A stretch of 39,822 nt of DNA, from positions 1-39,822 of the forward strand of contig JAFGBG010000118.1 of the NCBI GenBank assembly GCA_016933295.1, in the 5' to 3' direction. Of the stretch, positions 9,403 to 19,529 are shown in pieces. Made by a program: the position numbers and the translations under genes. Source of the DNA: Sedimentisphaerales bacterium. Its GTDB lineage: Bacteria; Planctomycetota; Phycisphaerae; Sedimentisphaerales; Anaerobacaceae. Positions within the stretch are counted from its first letter, which is position 1; each line of letters opens with the position of its first letter. A model generated the notes under the pieces. That model searched no databases. It was not told the DNA's origin and saw only the letters and a program-made list of their open reading frames with translations.

Positions 9403-9743
9403 CGAACATTCCTGTGCACACAGCTCATTATTGTTGACACATCCGGCTGAGGGCATAAAATAGCCGCAAATACCGAATGATAGATTCGAAATGCAATAGC
9501 TTTGAACTTTTGATGTATTGACCTATACTTTATTGTACTGGAGACCGGTAATAAATATTTGTGCGGTTTTATTAAAGTGCCCAACTTTGTCGTAGCTGTT
9601 TATTTAAGCATGAAGGATTTATATATTGCGGAGCATAAAATCTTTGAGTGCTACATAAGCTGCTGAATATAGAAGACTTTAGCTTTATATATATGGATTT
9701 GGTAGTTAATAGAGATTCTGGTTCAATTGTACATTTGATTGTT

Positions 9744-9773
9744 TTGGACAATTCTATATGTGAGTGATATAAT
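9744..9773 (+). promoter_or_regulatory. Putative promoter TTGGAC-N18-TATAAT
   Basis: Consensus-like -35/-10 pair ~52 bp upstream of the ATG at 9826. Confidence 0.5.
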
Positions 9774-9825
9774 GCCGGATTCAATGGAAAATTTATTATC
9801 ATCTAATGTGATAGGTAGCTTAAAG

Positions 9826-11247
9826 ATGAATCAGAATTTTAAAAATATGTTTCGTGAATATGATATCCGGGGACGTGTGAACGATGAAGAGCTTAACAAG
9901 AGCAGTGTCTCGTTGATCGTAAAGGCATTTGGAACATGGCTTCGAAAGCTTGATCAGACGAGCAATCTCGTTGTTATTGGCTACGACAATCGCTCTTATT
10001 CACCCCGATTTTCTGAAATTGCTAAAGAGGCAATGGTGCAATGTGGATTTCACGTGATTGACATCGGCCTGAGTTTGAGCCCTGTGGTTTATTTTGCTCA
10101 ATACTACTGTAAATCTCCCGCCGCAATTATGATTACTGCCAGTCATAATCCGGATGGTTGGTGCGGATTTAAACTCGCCAATGGCTACTCTAAAACCCTT
10201 GGCCCCCGGGAAATTAAAGAACTTTTTTCTGTTGTGGAAAGCGAAGAATTCGTTGAAAGGGGCGGTGGTAGTTGCGAACAAGTTGACGTTCGGGATGCCT
10301 ATATTGATAGTATAGTGAGCCGGATAAATATGAACGCAAACGGTGTTCCACGTGTTGTCATTGAAGCCGGAAACGGCGGAGCCGGGATTTTTGCCTGGGA
10401 AGTTTTTTACAGACTGGGATGCCCTACTTTCCAGCTATATTGTGATCCGGATATAAGTTATCCACATTATTTCCCTAATCCTTCGGATCTCAAAGCACGA
10501 ACCCGCTTGAGCGAGATGGTGACACATCAATATATCCATGCTGATGTAGGTATCGGCTTTGATGGAGATGGGGACCGTATCGGGATTATCGACGAGAATG
10601 GACAAAACCTTTGGAGTGACAGGCTCCTTATGATTCTGGCGAGGCAGTTGCTTGAGAAGAAGCCGGGGGGTAAAATAGTTTTCGACGTAAAATGCACACA
10701 GGCGCTTCCCGAAGTAATTACTGAATACGGTGGTGAACCAATCATGTGGAAAACCGGGCACTCTCTCGTCAAGGCCAAAATGCATGAAACCAAGGCCGAT
10801 TTAGCTGGAGAACGAAGTGGTCATATTTTTGTGGGCGGGGAAGATTATTATGGTTTCGACGACGCTATATTTGCGGCGGCCAAGTTGGTTGAGTATTTAT
10901 CCCACGTCAAAAAACCGATCACTGAAATCCTGAATTCCTTTCCTCAGTATATTACATCACCTGAAATCAAGGCCCATTGTCCTGACGAGACCAAGTATGA
11001 CGTGGTGGATCGGCTTGTGGCCGATTTTAAGAGGGAATACGGCTCGCGTGTGAACGACATTAACGGGGCCAGGGTGCTCTTTGATAATGGATGGGGCCTG
11101 GTTCGGGCTTCCTCGAACCTGCCGGAGTTGGTGCTTATCTTCGAAGGCAAAACAGAGCAGGACATGATGCACATACGCGACATATTCAAGACGAAACTGG
11201 ATAAATATAAGGACATCGACAGTCAATGGGAGAATGATGTACGCTGA
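9826..11247 (+). CDS. Phosphomannomutase/phosphoglucomutase (AlgC-like)
   Basis: 'FREYDIRG', 'MITASHNPDGWCGFKLA', 'GFDGDGDRIGI', 'GERSGHIF', 'VRASSNLPELVLIFEG'; start moved to 9826. Confidence 0.92.
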   Translation: MNQNFKNMFREYDIRGRVNDEELNKSSVSLIVKAFGTWLRKLDQTSNLVVIGYDNRSYSPRFSEIAKEAMVQCGFHVIDIGLSLSPVVYFAQYYCKSPAAIMITASHNPDGWCGFKLANGYSKTLGPREIKELFSVVESEEFVERGGGSCEQVDVRDAYIDSIVSRINMNANGVPRVVIEAGNGGAGIFAWEVFYRLGCPTFQLYCDPDISYPHYFPNPSDLKARTRLSEMVTHQYIHADVGIGFDGDGDRIGIIDENGQNLWSDRLLMILARQLLEKKPGGKIVFDVKCTQALPEVITEYGGEPIMWKTGHSLVKAKMHETKADLAGERSGHIFVGGEDYYGFDDAIFAAAKLVEYLSHVKKPITEILNSFPQYITSPEIKAHCPDETKYDVVDRLVADFKREYGSRVNDINGARVLFDNGWGLVRASSNLPELVLIFEGKTEQDMMHIRDIFKTKLDKYKDIDSQWENDVR

Positions 11248-11507: not shown

Positions 11508-11541
11508 ATTTCATCTGAAATGAATGCAATTTTGCATTCAT
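11508..11541. promoter_or_regulatory. Overlapping tandem palindromes ATTTCA-TC-TGAAAT (11508-11521) and ATGAATGCAA-TT-TTGCATTCAT (11520-11541)
   Basis: Perfect inverted repeats upstream of the Gfo/Idh gene; candidate operator or RNA hairpin. Confidence 0.6.
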
Positions 11542-11589
11542 AATAAGAGTCGAGGTATTGAGCCAACTTTTTTGGTGAGCGGTATTCCC

Positions 11590-12570
11590 ATGAATCTGAG
11601 CGAGAAATTGGTTTTGGCTGTTATTGGTGGTGGCGAGGCGGCTGAAAAGGCGATACCTATAATCCGAAAAAATTCTTATTTTGACCTTCAAGCCGTACAA
11701 TGTAAATCCAAAGAATTAATCGGACTCATTCCACCGATATGCCGTAAAGAAAGGTTAGACGAGTTGTTTAATTTGCCAGCGATATCAGCGATATATATAG
11801 CAACTCCCCCAGATACACATATATCAATAGCGAGGCGTTTTCTGGAATACGGCAAACATGTACTAATTGAGAAGCCATTGGCTAATGAGTCATCACAAGT
11901 GAACGCTCTTATTGTGCCAACGGGGCTTACAATTGGAGTTGCACTCAAAAAACGCTTCGGTGATTGGATTCCTCACTTTAATTCTCTTTTTCATGATGAG
12001 CTCGGCGGACTGCATATAGAACTCACCTGGAAAATCAATAAACCATCGACACCTTGGCGCTTCCAGTTAGAAAAGGCAGGAGGAGGGGTATTGATGGATT
12101 TGGGGCCACATATCCTCGATTTAGCGGAATTTCTATGCGGAAGCATTCTAAAAATCAGCGGCAAAGCCGTATTTGGGGATAGTACGTGTTGTATAGATGA
12201 CAGCGTATGGCTTCATATGGTACACTATCATGGTACAGTCACCGACCTCAGTCTCAGTTGGAGAGGTAAAAAACGGGAATATTGCTTAAACGCAGTGAGA
12301 GGAACTAAGCATTTGTGCCATAAGCGTGAAGTTGGCCAGGAAGATACTCTTGAGCTTCAATATAATAATTGTTATCAGGTACGACTACTGAGTGATTCTC
12401 GTCATGAATACGAAGGGCTGTTCAACAACTTCGCAGGGGCTATTTATGGTCGTCGAAATGGGCTACCAACGCTTGCTGATGGTATCCGCAATCTACGTCT
12501 AATTAGTGCTGCTTACCAAGCCATTCATTCAGGAGGAACGGTGAATATAGCCGATTACTCGGAGAAGTGA
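11590..12570 (+). CDS. Gfo/Idh/MocA-family oxidoreductase
   Basis: 'IATPPDTHISIARRFLEYGKHVLIEKPLA' motif and 'GGGVLMDLGPHILDLAEFL'; the ORF-track start at 11524 lies inside a palindrome. Confidence 0.9.
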   Translation: MNLSEKLVLAVIGGGEAAEKAIPIIRKNSYFDLQAVQCKSKELIGLIPPICRKERLDELFNLPAISAIYIATPPDTHISIARRFLEYGKHVLIEKPLANESSQVNALIVPTGLTIGVALKKRFGDWIPHFNSLFHDELGGLHIELTWKINKPSTPWRFQLEKAGGGVLMDLGPHILDLAEFLCGSILKISGKAVFGDSTCCIDDSVWLHMVHYHGTVTDLSLSWRGKKREYCLNAVRGTKHLCHKREVGQEDTLELQYNNCYQVRLLSDSRHEYEGLFNNFAGAIYGRRNGLPTLADGIRNLRLISAAYQAIHSGGTVNIADYSEK

Positions 12571-12572
12571 GT

Positions 12573-13796
12573 ATGACAAAGCAAACCTTGGCGATAAAAG
12601 GTGGACAACCTATACGCTCTATACCGTGGTCGTCGAGAAATCGTTCTGACGAATCCACACGGTGCGCACTAATGGCAGCACTTGACGCTGTAAACTGGTC
12701 AAATGGTGATTTTGCGCGCCGGTTTGAACGTCGCTTGTCCGAATTCTTAGGATGTCGCTTTGCCTTACTGACAACTAATGCAACCACTGCTCTCAAATTA
12801 TACCTGCTGGCCAGGGATGTCGGGCCTGGTGATGAGGTAATTATTCCGGCACTCACTTTTCCATCAATCGCAATGGCAGTAATGGAATGTGGCGCTACTC
12901 CCATTATCTGTGATGTCGAAGCTAACACCGGGTGTATGAGTGCCAGAACTTTCGAAGCGGTGTTAAGCAAAAAAACGCGTGTTGTGATCCCCACACACCT
13001 CTATTGTACATTATGTGATATGCCTCCGATAGTTGATCTGGCTAAACGGAACAATATTGATGTTGTTGAGGATTGTGCCCATTCTCCGGGCGCTCGCAGA
13101 AATAATTATAGCGCTGGTACTTTTGGTAATGCTGGAATCTTTAGTTTCAACCAGAAAAAACCGCTTTCTTGTGGAGAAGGTGGATGCCTCGTCACCAACC
13201 AAACTGAGGTTTACGAAACAGCACGCTACCTGCGAGACTTCGATAGTCCTCCTACCAAATCGTCAGTACGAATTCAACGGATGGGTAAGATCTCCGAATT
13301 CCAGGCCGCAGTACTGATTGGCCAGCTCGATTCCTTACCAAAACATTTACGAGCGATAGAGGAACGGGCCGAGAATTTGCGAGAACACCTCAATTATATG
13401 ACCGATATTACATTGGTGCCACGTCTTCCAGGCACTGATCTGCAAACCTTCTATAATATTTGTTTTATGGTCAATGAAAACATCAATGTTGCTTTTTTTA
13501 GGAAAGCTCTGTCCGCCGAATTGGGAATTCCCGTATCAAGCAGCTACGTACCACTGAATCAGAACCAGTCACTAAACTGTACACGTGACCGACAATTCAT
13601 AAACTACGCGGTAGAATCAAAAGTTCCATGCTGTACTGCCGAACGGATTTATAGATACAGGGCTGTTCGGTTCCCCGGATACTATCTCAATATAGATCCA
13701 ACGGCAGTAGATGACATCGACAGCGCGATAACCAAGGTGTTACCGCATGCTAAGCAGACACAGATGTCTGAGGAGGATGCCCATGCCTATCGCTGA
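12573..13796 (+). CDS. DegT/DnrJ/EryC1/StrS-family PLP aminotransferase
   Basis: 'DEVIIPALTFPSIAMAVMECGATPIICDVEANTGCMS', 'IDVVEDCAHSPGA', 'GIFSFNQKKPLSCGEGGCLVT' with putative PLP lysine. Confidence 0.93.
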   Translation: MTKQTLAIKGGQPIRSIPWSSRNRSDESTRCALMAALDAVNWSNGDFARRFERRLSEFLGCRFALLTTNATTALKLYLLARDVGPGDEVIIPALTFPSIAMAVMECGATPIICDVEANTGCMSARTFEAVLSKKTRVVIPTHLYCTLCDMPPIVDLAKRNNIDVVEDCAHSPGARRNNYSAGTFGNAGIFSFNQKKPLSCGEGGCLVTNQTEVYETARYLRDFDSPPTKSSVRIQRMGKISEFQAAVLIGQLDSLPKHLRAIEERAENLREHLNYMTDITLVPRLPGTDLQTFYNICFMVNENINVAFFRKALSAELGIPVSSSYVPLNQNQSLNCTRDRQFINYAVESKVPCCTAERIYRYRAVRFPGYYLNIDPTAVDDIDSAITKVLPHAKQTQMSEEDAHAYR

Positions 13797-15429
13797 TATT
13801 GCCATCATTTGTGCACTTGATATTGAAGCCAAGGCCATGTTAGAGGCCATCGGCGATATGGATAGAAGCCACTTCAAGCTTGGACCGTTTGACTGTCATT
13901 ACGGCCATATCAAGCGCAACGGGGACGAATGTTACCCGATAGTGCGCGTGGTTGTTTTGCATCTTGGCCGTATGGGTAATCTGGCCTCGATGCAAGCTGC
14001 TACCCTACTTCTACGCGAGGTGCATCCAAGTCAAGTTTTCCTCGTCGGAATTTGTGGTGGATTTGCTGAAACACAGACTGATTATTGTCTTGGCGATATT
14101 GTAGTCAGTGACAAAGTATATTATTATGAGCCTCAAAAGTTATGGCCCGACAGAGTTGAACATAGAGGTGTAGAACTGTTTTGTCCTGTCGAAGGAGAGA
14201 CGAAATATACTCCATCAAAACTTTATTTACTCGCGGAAAAGAAAAAAAGTGAGAGCAATTTACCTTTTATTGAGCCTTTGTCATCGCTTATCAGTACACC
14301 TTACCCCCACGGTGACAGTCAACATTTTAAACCAACAGTACGAACAGGTACGGTTTGTTCGGGAGAGAAAGTAGTAGCTGATGAATCCTTTGTTAAAAGT
14401 CTTCTTATTGAAAAGACAAACGCAATATCAGTGGAAATGGAAGCGGCGGGTGTGGCTGCGGCTTGTCAGGATGCAAAGACTCCATTCTTAGTGGTTAAAG
14501 CAGTATCTGATTTCACCAATTTAACTCCTGACTGGCAGGCGACTCAACGTACTTTTGCAGCAGAGGCTGCAGCCGCCTATACTATAGCCTTAATTACCTA
14601 TCCGTATCATGTAGCGGGCGGAGTTGGTAAAACTAAAAATACTGAAGGACTCGTTTTGAGTAAGCGTTGCCCACCCAAATCTTTTCTGACGGATTTTTTT
14701 CGAACAACTATCGATCTCGGAGTGGATGTCGTAATGCCGTCATACAAGAATTACCGTCATTCTGACAGTGGATTCCGAAATTACCCATTTAATGAATATG
14801 AAACGGCTTTTGATGATGTTTATTGTTCATTTCGTATTCATCCAAGCCTCATACATCTCATCGATAGTGGTATAGTCAAGTTCAAATTTGATCAACAGCT
14901 CCAAAATGGATTATTGAAAAATAAGAATATTATTCTTATTGGATCATCGGTGGCAAATGATTTTACCCAGGACATTCTCATAGATTTTAATGCTTTTTAT
15001 CATTTTGGCGATAATGAATCTAATGACCATGATATCGTGGATCGGAATGGAAAAACTTGTTTTGCTGCAAAAGTCAGTAGAAGAGTAGTGGGAGGTGAGG
15101 TACAAAAAAAATACATCAAAGATTATGGTCTCATAAGTGTATTCCACGATGGTTCCCGAAGTATCTGCATCTTGGCAGGCTGTCGTGCATTCTCACAAAT
15201 GTTATTGGGTGATTGGCTTGTTGAGGGCAATACTATAGAGGGTATATATCGGCACATTTATGGTTGTGACTTTCAACTTATTATTAAGGTAAAAGTGGCT
15301 GGACGCTCTTATAACTTTGAAGAGATTGCTATGCTTAAAAAACGTGAAGAAAATAGTTCGGAATGGAGGACTGTTAATTTACCAACCAGCCTAATTGCTA
15401 AAGGAGAATCTGTTCAATGTCTTTTATGA
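13783..15429 (+). CDS. Nucleoside phosphorylase/nucleosidase-like domain fused to an uncharacterised C-terminal domain
   Basis: RBS-like aggagg upstream of ATG 13783; N-terminal 'ADIAIICALDIEAKAMLEAI', 'VFLVGICGGF', 'AISVEMEAAGVAAACQDAKTPFLVVKAVSDF'; C-terminal ~270 aa unassigned. Confidence 0.85.
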   Translation: MPIADIAIICALDIEAKAMLEAIGDMDRSHFKLGPFDCHYGHIKRNGDECYPIVRVVVLHLGRMGNLASMQAATLLLREVHPSQVFLVGICGGFAETQTDYCLGDIVVSDKVYYYEPQKLWPDRVEHRGVELFCPVEGETKYTPSKLYLLAEKKKSESNLPFIEPLSSLISTPYPHGDSQHFKPTVRTGTVCSGEKVVADESFVKSLLIEKTNAISVEMEAAGVAAACQDAKTPFLVVKAVSDFTNLTPDWQATQRTFAAEAAAAYTIALITYPYHVAGGVGKTKNTEGLVLSKRCPPKSFLTDFFRTTIDLGVDVVMPSYKNYRHSDSGFRNYPFNEYETAFDDVYCSFRIHPSLIHLIDSGIVKFKFDQQLQNGLLKNKNIILIGSSVANDFTQDILIDFNAFYHFGDNESNDHDIVDRNGKTCFAAKVSRRVVGGEVQKKYIKDYGLISVFHDGSRSICILAGCRAFSQMLLGDWLVEGNTIEGIYRHIYGCDFQLIIKVKVAGRSYNFEEIAMLKKREENSSEWRTVNLPTSLIAKGESVQCLL

Positions 15430-16250
15430 AAAAATCAATAGATACAACAGCGTGGACGGAAATTTTGAAAGACATCATTCGTAGATGTATAAAAGAGGTT
15501 AAGCCCCTTTTTACGATACCTGAGGGTATGTGTGTCATTTCCATTAAACCGGATTATGATCCTACTATCGCGGCAGAGATTAAAGCGGAGGGTATCGCAG
15601 CCGGCATAATTCGGAAAGTCGGTTCTTCTATTGCATTGTTTAGTGAGGAACAAGAGTATTTACTCAATCCTCTAAATCCTACTCATCTGGTACTTTTTGA
15701 TCCTGTTGACTGCACCTACTTGGCGATAAGAGAGCTGCCCGGAGCCAGCGCCGGAATCTGTGTAATAGATTTGTCACAAAGGAAAATCATTTCGGCTGCT
15801 ATTGGGGATTATTACAATGGTGATCTCTACTGGGCTGATGAAGAAGGGGCTTTTTATAACGGGCAGCAACGGCATCCTACCAATGTTACTGAATTGAAGG
15901 ATGCTTTTGTCTCAACTTGTTACGGCAAGGCCAGTCGTGTGAATAAAATGCTTGCCGGAGAAGGAATGACTCGGGACGCTTTCTGGATTGACACAACATC
16001 TGGTATTCTTGCTATGGCCCAGGTAGGTATCGGCCGAATGGATGCTTATTTTGACCTGATGCTTGGCTTTAAACCATTTGACTTTGCACCTGGAGCTTAT
16101 TTTGCTGCTAAGGCTGGAGCTTGTGTAACTGACGAGTATGGCAATCCCTTAGAATGGCCTCATGATCAACACCAAAGATGTAAGTTTGTTATCGCCGCAA
16201 CATGCGAGTTGAACAAAGAAATCAGACAATCTGCCGGACGAATAACATGA
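15417..16250 (+). CDS. Inositol monophosphatase/FBPase-superfamily protein (divergent)
   Basis: 'LFSEEQEYL', 'LVLFDPVDCTYLA' (DPxDGT variant), 'FKPFDFAPGAYFAAKAGACVTDEYGNPL'. Confidence 0.8.
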   Translation: MSFMKKSIDTTAWTEILKDIIRRCIKEVKPLFTIPEGMCVISIKPDYDPTIAAEIKAEGIAAGIIRKVGSSIALFSEEQEYLLNPLNPTHLVLFDPVDCTYLAIRELPGASAGICVIDLSQRKIISAAIGDYYNGDLYWADEEGAFYNGQQRHPTNVTELKDAFVSTCYGKASRVNKMLAGEGMTRDAFWIDTTSGILAMAQVGIGRMDAYFDLMLGFKPFDFAPGAYFAAKAGACVTDEYGNPLEWPHDQHQRCKFVIAATCELNKEIRQSAGRIT

Positions 16251-16448: not shown

Positions 16449-17024
16449 TTGAAGCTAATCATGCAGCCCAAAATAATAATTTCAAAAGACGGATTAATAA
16501 AATGCATCTTTCGGATGATAGAACAAAAAGACGGATTAGCACTTGGATATTTTTTTGGTTTACTCTCTGATGAAACTAAATCTCGATTTGCTCCACATCC
16601 CCTCACGCCGGAATATGCAAAAAGGCTCTGCATAAACGAATCAGGTGATACCGCAGAAAGATTCGTTCTTGAATGTGACAGAAAAATTATTGGATACTTT
16701 ATTCTGGAATATGTAATGTCAGTTCATGAAGCTAATAGATACAGGCAATTCGGAGTGAACTTGAAGTCGAATCAAGATATTCTTTTTGCACCATGCATTT
16801 TGGACGAATATCAGAATAAAGGACTTGCAAGTCAGGTTATGATGATTTTGATTCAACATGCGAAAGAGAAACGCATGAGAAGCATTGTACTTATGGGGGG
16901 AACTCAGGAAACTAACATCATCGCTAAAAAACTTTATGAAAAATACGGTTTTAAGAAATATGGAGGGTATCAAACAGATATTTACAACATAGATATGCGA
17001 TTGGAGTTACATCAGTCACAATAG
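16449..17024 (+). CDS. GNAT-family N-acetyltransferase
   Basis: 'FAPCILDEYQNKGLASQVMMILIQHAKEKRMRSIVLMGGTQETNIIAKKLYEKYGFKKYG'. Confidence 0.85.
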   Translation: MKLIMQPKIIISKDGLIKCIFRMIEQKDGLALGYFFGLLSDETKSRFAPHPLTPEYAKRLCINESGDTAERFVLECDRKIIGYFILEYVMSVHEANRYRQFGVNLKSNQDILFAPCILDEYQNKGLASQVMMILIQHAKEKRMRSIVLMGGTQETNIIAKKLYEKYGFKKYGGYQTDIYNIDMRLELHQSQ

Positions 17025-17258: not shown

Positions 17259-17879
17259 ATGCCTGGATATTCGTTCGTGTCGGAAGAGCATGGTCAAATC
17301 ATACGGAATGATGAGCTTACCTGGGTAATTGATCCACTTGATGGTTCCAGTTACTATGTTCGGGGATTGCAATCTTTCAGAATATCGGTCGCTTTGCTGC
17401 ATCAATGGCAGCCTGTTCTTGGTATTGTTTCCTGCCCATTAAATGCAGAATTTTTCACTGCTCTTCATGCAGGTGGATCGTATCTTAATGGCAAGCCAAT
17501 TACGGTATCTTCCCATAGAAAACTTCAAGATTGCATTTTTAGCTTCAGTCATCGTTTTCTAATGGATACGGAATACAGAAGACCACGTGATGAACTGGTA
17601 GCTTCGTGTCGATCAATCAGAGGAGGAGGATCCTGTGCACAGGAATTGTGTTACATCGCGTGTGGAAGGATAGATAGTTTAATTGCACCTGCACAGAAAA
17701 TCTGGGATTTTGCCGCAGGGATTCTCATTGTTGAAGAAGCAGGGGGGCAATTAACGAATTTTGCAGGTGAATCACCTGATTATTTTGCTATATCACAAAA
17801 AGATTTCTCTCTTGTTGCCTCTAATGGACATATACACAGACAAATTTTGGAATCACTGCTTTCCTACACAGAGGGCTAA
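17259..17879 (+). CDS. Inositol monophosphatase family protein, apparently N-terminally truncated
   Basis: 'PGYSFVSEEHG', 'WVIDPLDGSSYYVRGLQSFRISVALL', 'WDFAAGILIVEEAGGQLTNF'; lacks the usual ~60 N-terminal residues. Confidence 0.75.
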   Translation: MPGYSFVSEEHGQIIRNDELTWVIDPLDGSSYYVRGLQSFRISVALLHQWQPVLGIVSCPLNAEFFTALHAGGSYLNGKPITVSSHRKLQDCIFSFSHRFLMDTEYRRPRDELVASCRSIRGGGSCAQELCYIACGRIDSLIAPAQKIWDFAAGILIVEEAGGQLTNFAGESPDYFAISQKDFSLVASNGHIHRQILESLLSYTEG

Positions 17880-18062: not shown

Positions 18063-18158
18063 CATTCTCATTACTATCGGTTAATAATACCCGAAACATT
18101 TAGATTATTGTATGAAGTGATGAAATCAACGTTCGGATCTGGTAAGGAAGTTAATGTA

Positions 18159-19529
18159 ATGGATCCTGCGATTTTCAGAATAGATGATGTATTAGGTATA
18201 TATCCGGACCAGCTCAGCGAGGAGGATGCGTGGAAAATCGGTTCCGCCACGGCACAGTTTTTACGGTCGCTTCTTCGAGGATATGAACGAGGCCAGGCGA
18301 ACGCCCAGTCGCTGTGCGTCGGTCGTGATATGCGAACACACAGCGAATCTTTGGTCAAGGCTCTTATCGAGGGCATGAATTCGACGGGAGCGAATGTTAT
18401 CGATATCGGCATGATTGATACGCCGCAGATGTATTTCGCCATCAATCATATAGGCACATGCGGCGGAGTCCAGGTGACCGCTTCGCATAATCCGGCAAAA
18501 TATAACGGTTTTAAAATCTCCGGACTGGAGGCCAAGCCGGTCGGCGCCGATACAGGCCTGAAAGATATAGAGCATATCGCGTTGGCGCTGCTTCATACAA
18601 AAGGGACCGCTTACGGCTCGGTCAGGGAGATGGATTTAACCGCCGAATATAAAAATCATGTCCTGAAATTTCTCAAACCGAACACCAAAAAGCTGAAGAT
18701 TGCCATTGATGCTTCCAACGGGATGGCCGGCAAAATAGTACCGGCGATTTTCGGTGATTTGCCGATTGAGATAGTCAGTCGGAATTTCCAGCATACCGGC
18801 AAGTTTAAGCACGAGCCTAATCCGCTGGTCGAGGCGAATCTGACTCAGGTCAAATCAGCGGTCAAAAGGAGCAAGTGCGATTTCGGCGTATGTTTCGACG
18901 GCGATGCGGACCGGCTGATTATGGTCGATGAAAAAGGCAATACCATCGGATGCGATTTATTGACGGCGTTAATGGTGCCGTATTTTCTGGAAAAGCAGCC
19001 GAAATCCGCCATAGTTTACGATTTGCGCAGCAGCAGGGTCGTTATGGAAGAGATTATCAAGCACGGCGGCACGCCGCGAAGAGAGAGAGTCGGCCATGCG
19101 TTTATGAAAAAGGCCCTGCGCGATTCGCACGCCGTATTCGGTGGCGAGCTGTCGGGGCATTTTTATTATCGCGATAATTTTTATGCCGATTCGGGGATGA
19201 TTACGTTGGTGCATGTGATTAATATCATCAGTGAAGCGGAAGTGCCGATAAGTGAGCTGATAAAACCTCTGCGAAGGTATTCGACCAGCGGCGAATTGAA
19301 CTTCGAGGTCGAAAACAAACAAGACAAAATGGAGGAGCTTGCAAAACGTTACAGCGACGGCCAGGTGGATTGGTTTGATGGTGTTACGGTCGGATATAAG
19401 GATTGGTGGTTTAACTGCCGGCCTAGTAATACAGAGCCGCTGTTGAGATTGAATTTAGAAGCCAAAAATAAAGAAATGCTCGAAGAGAAGCTCTCTGAAA
19501 TCACCGGACTATTGGGCGAGCCGGTTTGA
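18159..19529 (+). CDS. Phosphomannomutase/phosphoglucomutase (ManB-like)
   Basis: 'VQVTASHNPAKYNGFKI', 'CFDGDADRLIMVDEKG', 'GELSGHFYYRDNFYADSGM', 'CRPSNTEPLLRLNLEA'. Confidence 0.92.
   Translation: MDPAIFRIDDVLGIYPDQLSEEDAWKIGSATAQFLRSLLRGYERGQANAQSLCVGRDMRTHSESLVKALIEGMNSTGANVIDIGMIDTPQMYFAINHIGTCGGVQVTASHNPAKYNGFKISGLEAKPVGADTGLKDIEHIALALLHTKGTAYGSVREMDLTAEYKNHVLKFLKPNTKKLKIAIDASNGMAGKIVPAIFGDLPIEIVSRNFQHTGKFKHEPNPLVEANLTQVKSAVKRSKCDFGVCFDGDADRLIMVDEKGNTIGCDLLTALMVPYFLEKQPKSAIVYDLRSSRVVMEEIIKHGGTPRRERVGHAFMKKALRDSHAVFGGELSGHFYYRDNFYADSGMITLVHVINIISEAEVPISELIKPLRRYSTSGELNFEVENKQDKMEELAKRYSDGQVDWFDGVTVGYKDWWFNCRPSNTEPLLRLNLEAKNKEMLEEKLSEITGLLGEPV

Follow-up and report, generated by a model that had tools for sequence, protein, structure and literature searches.

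A PNP domain fused to an S_layer_C-like GGPxxN domain in a planctomycete amino-sugar-type operon: a possible sensor-gated N-glycosidase

The fusion gene and its operon

Here, we describe a gene of a Sedimentisphaerales bacterium (assembly GCA_016933295.1, contig JAFGBG010000118.1) that joins a nucleoside phosphorylase/nucleosidase (PNP) domain to a C-terminal GGPxxN domain, a label coined here for a widespread, unnamed alpha/beta domain. The window, i.e., the whole stretch of DNA that was analyzed, is 39,822 nucleotides long. The fusion gene, its parts and its neighbors lie in the window as follows.

9739–11247, + strand: phosphomannomutase/phosphoglucomutase, upstream of the cluster (profile matches)
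11524–12570, + strand: Gfo/Idh/MocA sugar or inositol dehydrogenase, overlapping the next gene (profile matches)
12567–13796, + strand: DegT/AHBA-type aminotransferase, overlapping the fusion gene (perosamine synthase and 2-deoxy-scyllo-inosose aminotransferase relatives)
13783–15429, + strand: PNP::GGPxxN fusion gene, 548 aa (open reading frame; ribosome-binding site GAGGAGG 6 nt upstream)
13792–14601, + strand: nucleoside phosphorylase/nucleosidase domain, aa 4–273 (PF01048; PADLOC PN-superfamily effector; alignment with MTA/SAH nucleosidases; catalytic E15, E220, D243)
14602–14712, + strand: linker, aa 274–310 (space between the two domain matches; mostly low model confidence)
14713–15348, + strand: C-terminal GGPxxN (S_layer_C-like) domain, aa 311–522 (leave-one-out profile; homologue loci L033–L066; fold)
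14926–14958, + strand: GGPxxN motif, diverged to NIILIGSSVAN, aa 382–392 (motif comparison)
15118–15135, + strand: DYGxI motif, conserved as KDYGLI, aa 446–451 (motif comparison)
15169–15210, + strand: AGxxxxGTxAA motif, diverged to AGCRAFSQMLLG, aa 463–476 (motif comparison)
15417–16250, + strand: inositol-monophosphatase-family phosphatase, overlapping the end of the fusion gene (profile matches)
16449–17024, + strand: GNAT acetyltransferase (Pfam)
17259–17879, + strand: second inositol-monophosphatase gene, N-terminally truncated by about 60 residues (Pfam match from profile position 62)
18108–19529, + strand: second phosphoglucomutase/phosphomannomutase (profile matches)

The open reading frame of the fusion gene runs in a single frame without interruption, and its start codon is backed by the GAGGAGG at 13770–13776. 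As the gene overlaps both the stop of the DegT aminotransferase gene (13796) and the start of the inositol-monophosphatase gene (15417), translational coupling to both neighbors is probable. Gfo/Idh dehydrogenases, DegT aminotransferases and inositol monophosphatases are the enzymes that pathways of the inosamine/aminocyclitol or 3-amino-sugar kind employ. The truncated second inositol-monophosphatase gene is probably a decayed duplicate. No recognizable defence genes were found near the fusion gene, and in the sampled sister genomes no copy of it was found near DegT relatives. GC content is 44.7% in the N-terminal half of the gene versus 36.8% in the C-terminal half, from which the low-GC stretch extends into the following genes. 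Searches of about 800 genomes with a profile of the GGPxxN domain revealed no second PNP-GGPxxN protein.

The N-terminal half and defence-type phosphorylases

It is virtually certain that the N-terminal half has a PNP-superfamily fold. PF01048 matches aa 6–261 (E 8.5e-20; 71.6 bits versus a gathering score of 25.1), in agreement with the earlier note on this DNA, which had assigned this half to the phosphorylase superfamily from motifs that are all present (GICGGF, aa 89–94; VEMEAAG, aa 217–223; AVSDF, aa 240–244). Alignment with MTA/SAH nucleosidases (MTANs) from sister genomes showed that the catalytic positions E15, E220 and D243 are kept; we take these to be equivalent to E12, E174 and D197 of E. 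coli MTAN. The loss of the active site, which the note had named as evidence against its view, is thus not seen, and the retained residues make a catalytically active domain quite likely.

The PADLOC PN-superfamily Effector model scores the fusion protein at 92.3 bits (E 6.1e-27). Because housekeeping MTANs match the same model, with 60–78 bits for four true MTANs from sister genomes, this match is not by itself proof of a defence PNP, and we used only the order of scores. In the fusion protein the PADLOC model ranks above the best metabolic model (84.6 bits, PRK05584); in true MTANs the order is reversed. The PRK05584 score is half the cut-off of 169, which the sister-genome MTANs exceed with 215–229 bits, and the score of the MTA/SAH nucleosidase model TIGR01704 is likewise below its cut-off (60.8 versus 73.8 bits). 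None of the NCBIfam metabolic equivalog cut-offs was passed by the PNP half. Given the halved PRK05584 score and the better match to defence PNP effectors, we do not regard the protein as an MTA/SAH nucleosidase equivalog; its PNP half is probably of the defence rather than the housekeeping type. This grouping favors the sensor or effector role that had earlier been raised as an alternative to biosynthesis. The accompanying comparison with STAND-type conflict proteins does not hold: PF01048 was the only Pfam family found in the open reading frame, a P-loop NTPase is absent from it, and a STAND protein was thus ruled out.

Two PNP proteins, from Nostoc and Calothrix, were found by tblastn of plasmids. 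The closest plasmid homologue, WP_104902267 on Nostoc pNPM2 (31% over 245 aa, E 4e-23), is annotated as SAVED-containing and is encoded directly upstream of a CBASS oligonucleotide cyclase. The fusion protein shares the layout of such PNP-SAVED CBASS effectors (WP_104902267; PADLOC PDLC00759), with PNP first and the sensor last, at nearly the same length (538 versus 548 aa). It differs in that GGPxxN stands in place of SAVED, for which the C-terminal half has no Pfam match, and in that its gene is located in an amino-sugar-type operon with no adjoining CBASS cyclase. Since Pfam detected no CD-NTase cyclase among the operon genes and the host genome (88% complete; control positive) yielded no SMODS nucleotidyltransferase, membership in CBASS was ruled out.

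PNP effectors of the defence class degrade ATP (PMC11249213; PMC10952713). According to the summary of Rousset et al. 2023 cited in PMC10952713, Cap17 consists of PF18178 and PNP and is linked to Detocs, CBASS and pAgo. Like Cap17, the fusion protein combines a PNP domain from this class of ATP-cleaving effectors with a sensor-like domain for which TIR is another partner; it lacks, however, a match to PF18178, the N-terminal SLOG-type domain of Cap17. PF18178 was considered as it pairs with both TIR and PNP, and was dropped as it gave no match to the fusion protein up to E 1; it had none in the host genome either, a weak test given that the control genomes also gave none. In a genome of the same genus, a related PNP is fused to EAD7, a conflict-system architecture (L003, 1261–2523). 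The Calothrix plasmid carries two purine-phosphorylase-type genes close together (L115, 1734–5518), one of them with a PNP-sensor layout and no annotated cyclase nearby.

The C-terminal GGPxxN domain, its fold and its partners

Searched as a single sequence, the C-terminal half gave nothing above threshold in Pfam, NCBIfam, PADLOC or PDB sequences and no relatives in the phylum sample, plasmids, phages, viral sequences or genome contigs; a hit to Adenyl_transf (PF04439, E 0.05–0.16) was judged to be due to chance. Relatives were gathered stepwise, from a hand-made motif consensus (used as seed only) to plasmid proteins and further sets, which led to GGPxxN proteins in planctomycetes, Nitrospirales, Granulicella, other bacteria and several archaeal phyla. 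A leave-one-out profile, built from proteins of other organisms and excluding the fusion protein, scores the C-terminal half at 37.7 bits, compared with 4.8 for the best of 1000 shuffles, so that the half is not a chance reading frame. With very high confidence we therefore place it in the S_layer_C-like family, as a divergent copy. The strings NIILIGSSVAN and KDYGLI, to which the earlier note had drawn attention, correspond to two of the family motifs (GGPxxN, DYGxI, AGxxxxGTxAA), which read GSSVAN, DYGLI and AGCRAFSQ in the fusion protein. The first and third are partly diverged, and with two of the three glycine motifs changed (GSSVAN, AFSQ), ligand binding may be altered or lost.

The family profile matches a single PDB sequence, 9fsa (E 2.2e-9), the cell-wall anchoring domain of the Methanococcus voltae S-layer protein, and the archaeal member L051 matches Pfam S_layer_C (PF05124, E 1.3e-12); the sequence of the fusion protein itself is below the Pfam threshold. 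AlphaFold modeled the C-terminal half with moderate confidence (pLDDT 61.7) and its closest relative, L043, with pLDDT 81.5 and pTM 0.82. The best Foldseek matches of both models are 9fsa, BcsB and the N-terminal alpha/beta domains of GH84, GH67 and GH115, with probability 0.99 for the fusion-protein model (E 9.4e-3 and 1.5e-3 for 9fsa/BcsB) and 1.0 for the L043 model (best E 3e-4). By these models, the half that the earlier note could not assign to a named fold is predicted to have an S_layer_C / BcsB / GH67-N-type alpha/beta fold, recognizable once homologues had been collected; the structural check provided this fold but no described function for cytosolic versions. Similarity to the archaeal S-layer domain comprises the common GGPxxN and AG..(G)T motifs, the profile match (2.2e-9) and the fold (probability 0.99–1.0), whereas the GGPxxN versions considered here are cytosolic and fused to enzyme or regulatory domains. 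BcsB, a cellulose-synthase subunit, and the GH67, GH84 and GH115 domains share the fold (E 3e-4 to 5e-3, probability 1.0); they are, however, extracytoplasmic polysaccharide proteins, and no significant sequence similarity to the GGPxxN domain was found. An S-layer function of the fusion protein was rejected because the PNP domain begins the protein directly and the nearest architectures with known partners are intracellular.

The search for co-occurring domains that had been suggested for the C-terminal module returned a broad set of partners. GGPxxN is fused to TIR_2 (L035, E 7.3e-29), to TIR/NDT-like domains (L031 and, by eye, L084), to a DNPH1 N-hydrolase-like domain (L101) and to EAD11 (L083, E 6e-12), and occurs with an esterase (L090) and, as seen by sequence inspection, with membrane segments (L043, L036, L066, L087, L102, L103). 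Fusions to DNA-binding domains are found in archaea, actinobacteria and planctomycetes and include winged HTH (archaea), Cro/C1 HTH (L085, L086) and sigma-70 region 4 (P0003). In the TIR and DNPH1/NDT-like proteins (L035, L031, L101, L084), GGPxxN is C-terminal to a base-releasing (N-glycosidase) fold as in the fusion protein, with a TIR or NDT fold where the latter has PNP. The simplest reading of a domain found C-terminally of so many output domains, unrelated to one another, is that it receives input; judged from these repeated fusions, GGPxxN would behave as an interchangeable sensor module, and we consider, with reasonable confidence, that it serves as the sensor of the fusion protein.

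Other GGPxxN loci show further arrangements. In L040 (1410–2960), an Abi_alpha (abortive infection) gene (1.1e-56) comes immediately after the gene of a GGPxxN protein with a possible membrane anchor as its N-terminal segment, and L042 (4539–7973) has a TIR/NDT-like GGPxxN gene facing another in which a SLOG-like stretch was recognized by eye, with no Pfam match. Regions resembling class III nucleotide cyclases by eye precede GGPxxN in L112 (793–2148), where they are fused, and in L038 (2060–3390), where the frames overlap. The PF00211 profile did not detect these regions and their PDB matches, all three cyclases, had E values of 0.7–0.9; their identity as nucleotide cyclases was left out of the evidence. 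A Pycsar-like pairing is possible there, with weak profile support.

At 12 of 17 archaeal-type HTH-GGPxxN loci (L045–L056, L058, L059, L062–L064), the fetched DNA includes glmS, in most cases as the immediate neighbor in divergent orientation, although the independent count is below this, as some loci are near-identical (L047–L049) and several closely related; all are distant homologues of the fusion-protein domain. L051, recorded as an Aminicenantes bin, and L053 additionally carry glmU and glmM. The winged-HTH proteins beside glmS/glmM/glmU (L045–L054, L062, L063) share the GGPxxN domain and an amino-sugar gene context with the fusion protein, with a DNA-binding output where the latter has a nucleosidase, and are candidate regulators of hexosamine synthesis; a full-text literature search found no paper on such an HTH-GGPxxN regulator. 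Together with the operon of the fusion gene and the polysaccharide-related fold relatives, this archaeal context suggests an amino-sugar-type ligand, a lead that we regard as tentative.

Proposed function and its alternatives

It is possible, at somewhat short of an even chance, that the fusion protein acts as a nucleotide N-glycosidase gated by a sensor, with GGPxxN in the position of SAVED and an amino-sugar metabolite as its probable signal. The PNP domain would split nucleosides or nucleotides between base and sugar, as Cap17 and the PNP effectors of Detocs and CBASS do with (d)ATP. GGPxxN would stand where PNP-SAVED CBASS effectors have SAVED. By binding a small ligand, of which an amino sugar or a sugar nucleotide is the likeliest kind, it would switch the PNP domain on or off. 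We infer a use in conflict, i.e., defence or self-restraint, rather than in metabolism; a true defence role is conceivable at a slightly lower level of confidence. Points against a sensor-gated effector are that the fusion was seen once in about 800 genomes, the diverged motifs, the metabolic operon, the lack of recognizable defence genes nearby and of SMODS in the 88% complete genome, the distant relationship of the glmS-linked archaeal homologues, the moderate confidence of the C-terminal model and the GC difference between the halves.

The operon could instead mean that the protein is a pathway enzyme with no role in conflict, whose PNP domain processes a nucleoside or nucleotide-sugar intermediate of amino-sugar/aminocyclitol synthesis. 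The C-terminal domain would then contribute to binding of the sugar moiety, be it on the substrate or on the product. The overlaps with the aminotransferase and phosphatase genes, the fit of Gfo/Idh, DegT and inositol monophosphatase to such pathways, and the carbohydrate-associated fold relatives agree with this reading. We nevertheless hold it to be rather unlikely, as no NCBIfam metabolic equivalog is as near to the PNP half as the defence PNPs are, the sampled DegT relatives of sister genomes have no fusion-gene copy nearby, and the partners of GGPxxN elsewhere are TIR, HTH and EAD domains and not enzymes of biosynthesis. A non-cleaving regulator that controls flux through the operon, with the PNP fold sensing a nucleotide and GGPxxN an amino sugar, would be in keeping with the DNA-binding partners of GGPxxN and its hexosamine gene neighbors in archaea. 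This is improbable, as Pfam found no DNA-binding domain in the fusion protein and a pure binding domain would not need the retained catalytic residues.

A housekeeping MTA/SAH nucleosidase with an inert C-terminal passenger, which the PF01048 match and the conserved MTAN residues might suggest, is scarcely credible and was already disfavored by a PRK05584 score at half the cut-off, which true MTANs of sister genomes pass, and by the better match to defence PNPs. An accidental or artefactual fusion, in which a lost stop or a chimera of assembly or binning joined a PNP gene to part of a GGPxxN gene, would account for the unequal GC content, the diverged glycine motifs and the lack of a second example. 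It is very improbable in view of the one intact frame with neighbors overlapping both ends, the low-GC stretch that also spans the following genes, and the many homologous architectures of like kind.

If the proposed gating is correct, the sensor-gated N-glycosidase would represent a new switch for an established type of bacterial immune effector. Domains such as SAVED and those of SLOG type are already known as triggers of PNP and TIR effectors; an unnamed domain common to PNP, TIR, DNPH1-like, EAD11, transcription-factor and archaeal hexosamine-adjacent proteins would add a further trigger class, possibly responsive to amino-sugar metabolites, and provides a testable ligand class for a domain of several bacterial and archaeal phyla. 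It would also link the surface-layer domains of archaea evolutionarily to signaling inside the cell. More speculatively, and on present grounds doubtfully, GGPxxN might be a general intracellular sensor of amino sugars (UDP-GlcNAc or hexosamine-phosphate type) that serves both the regulation of hexosamine synthesis in archaea and base-releasing immune effectors (PNP, TIR, DNPH1-like) in bacteria. The fusion protein would then be an effector that guards metabolites or the envelope and fires upon disturbed amino-sugar metabolism, triggered without any cyclic-nucleotide signal.
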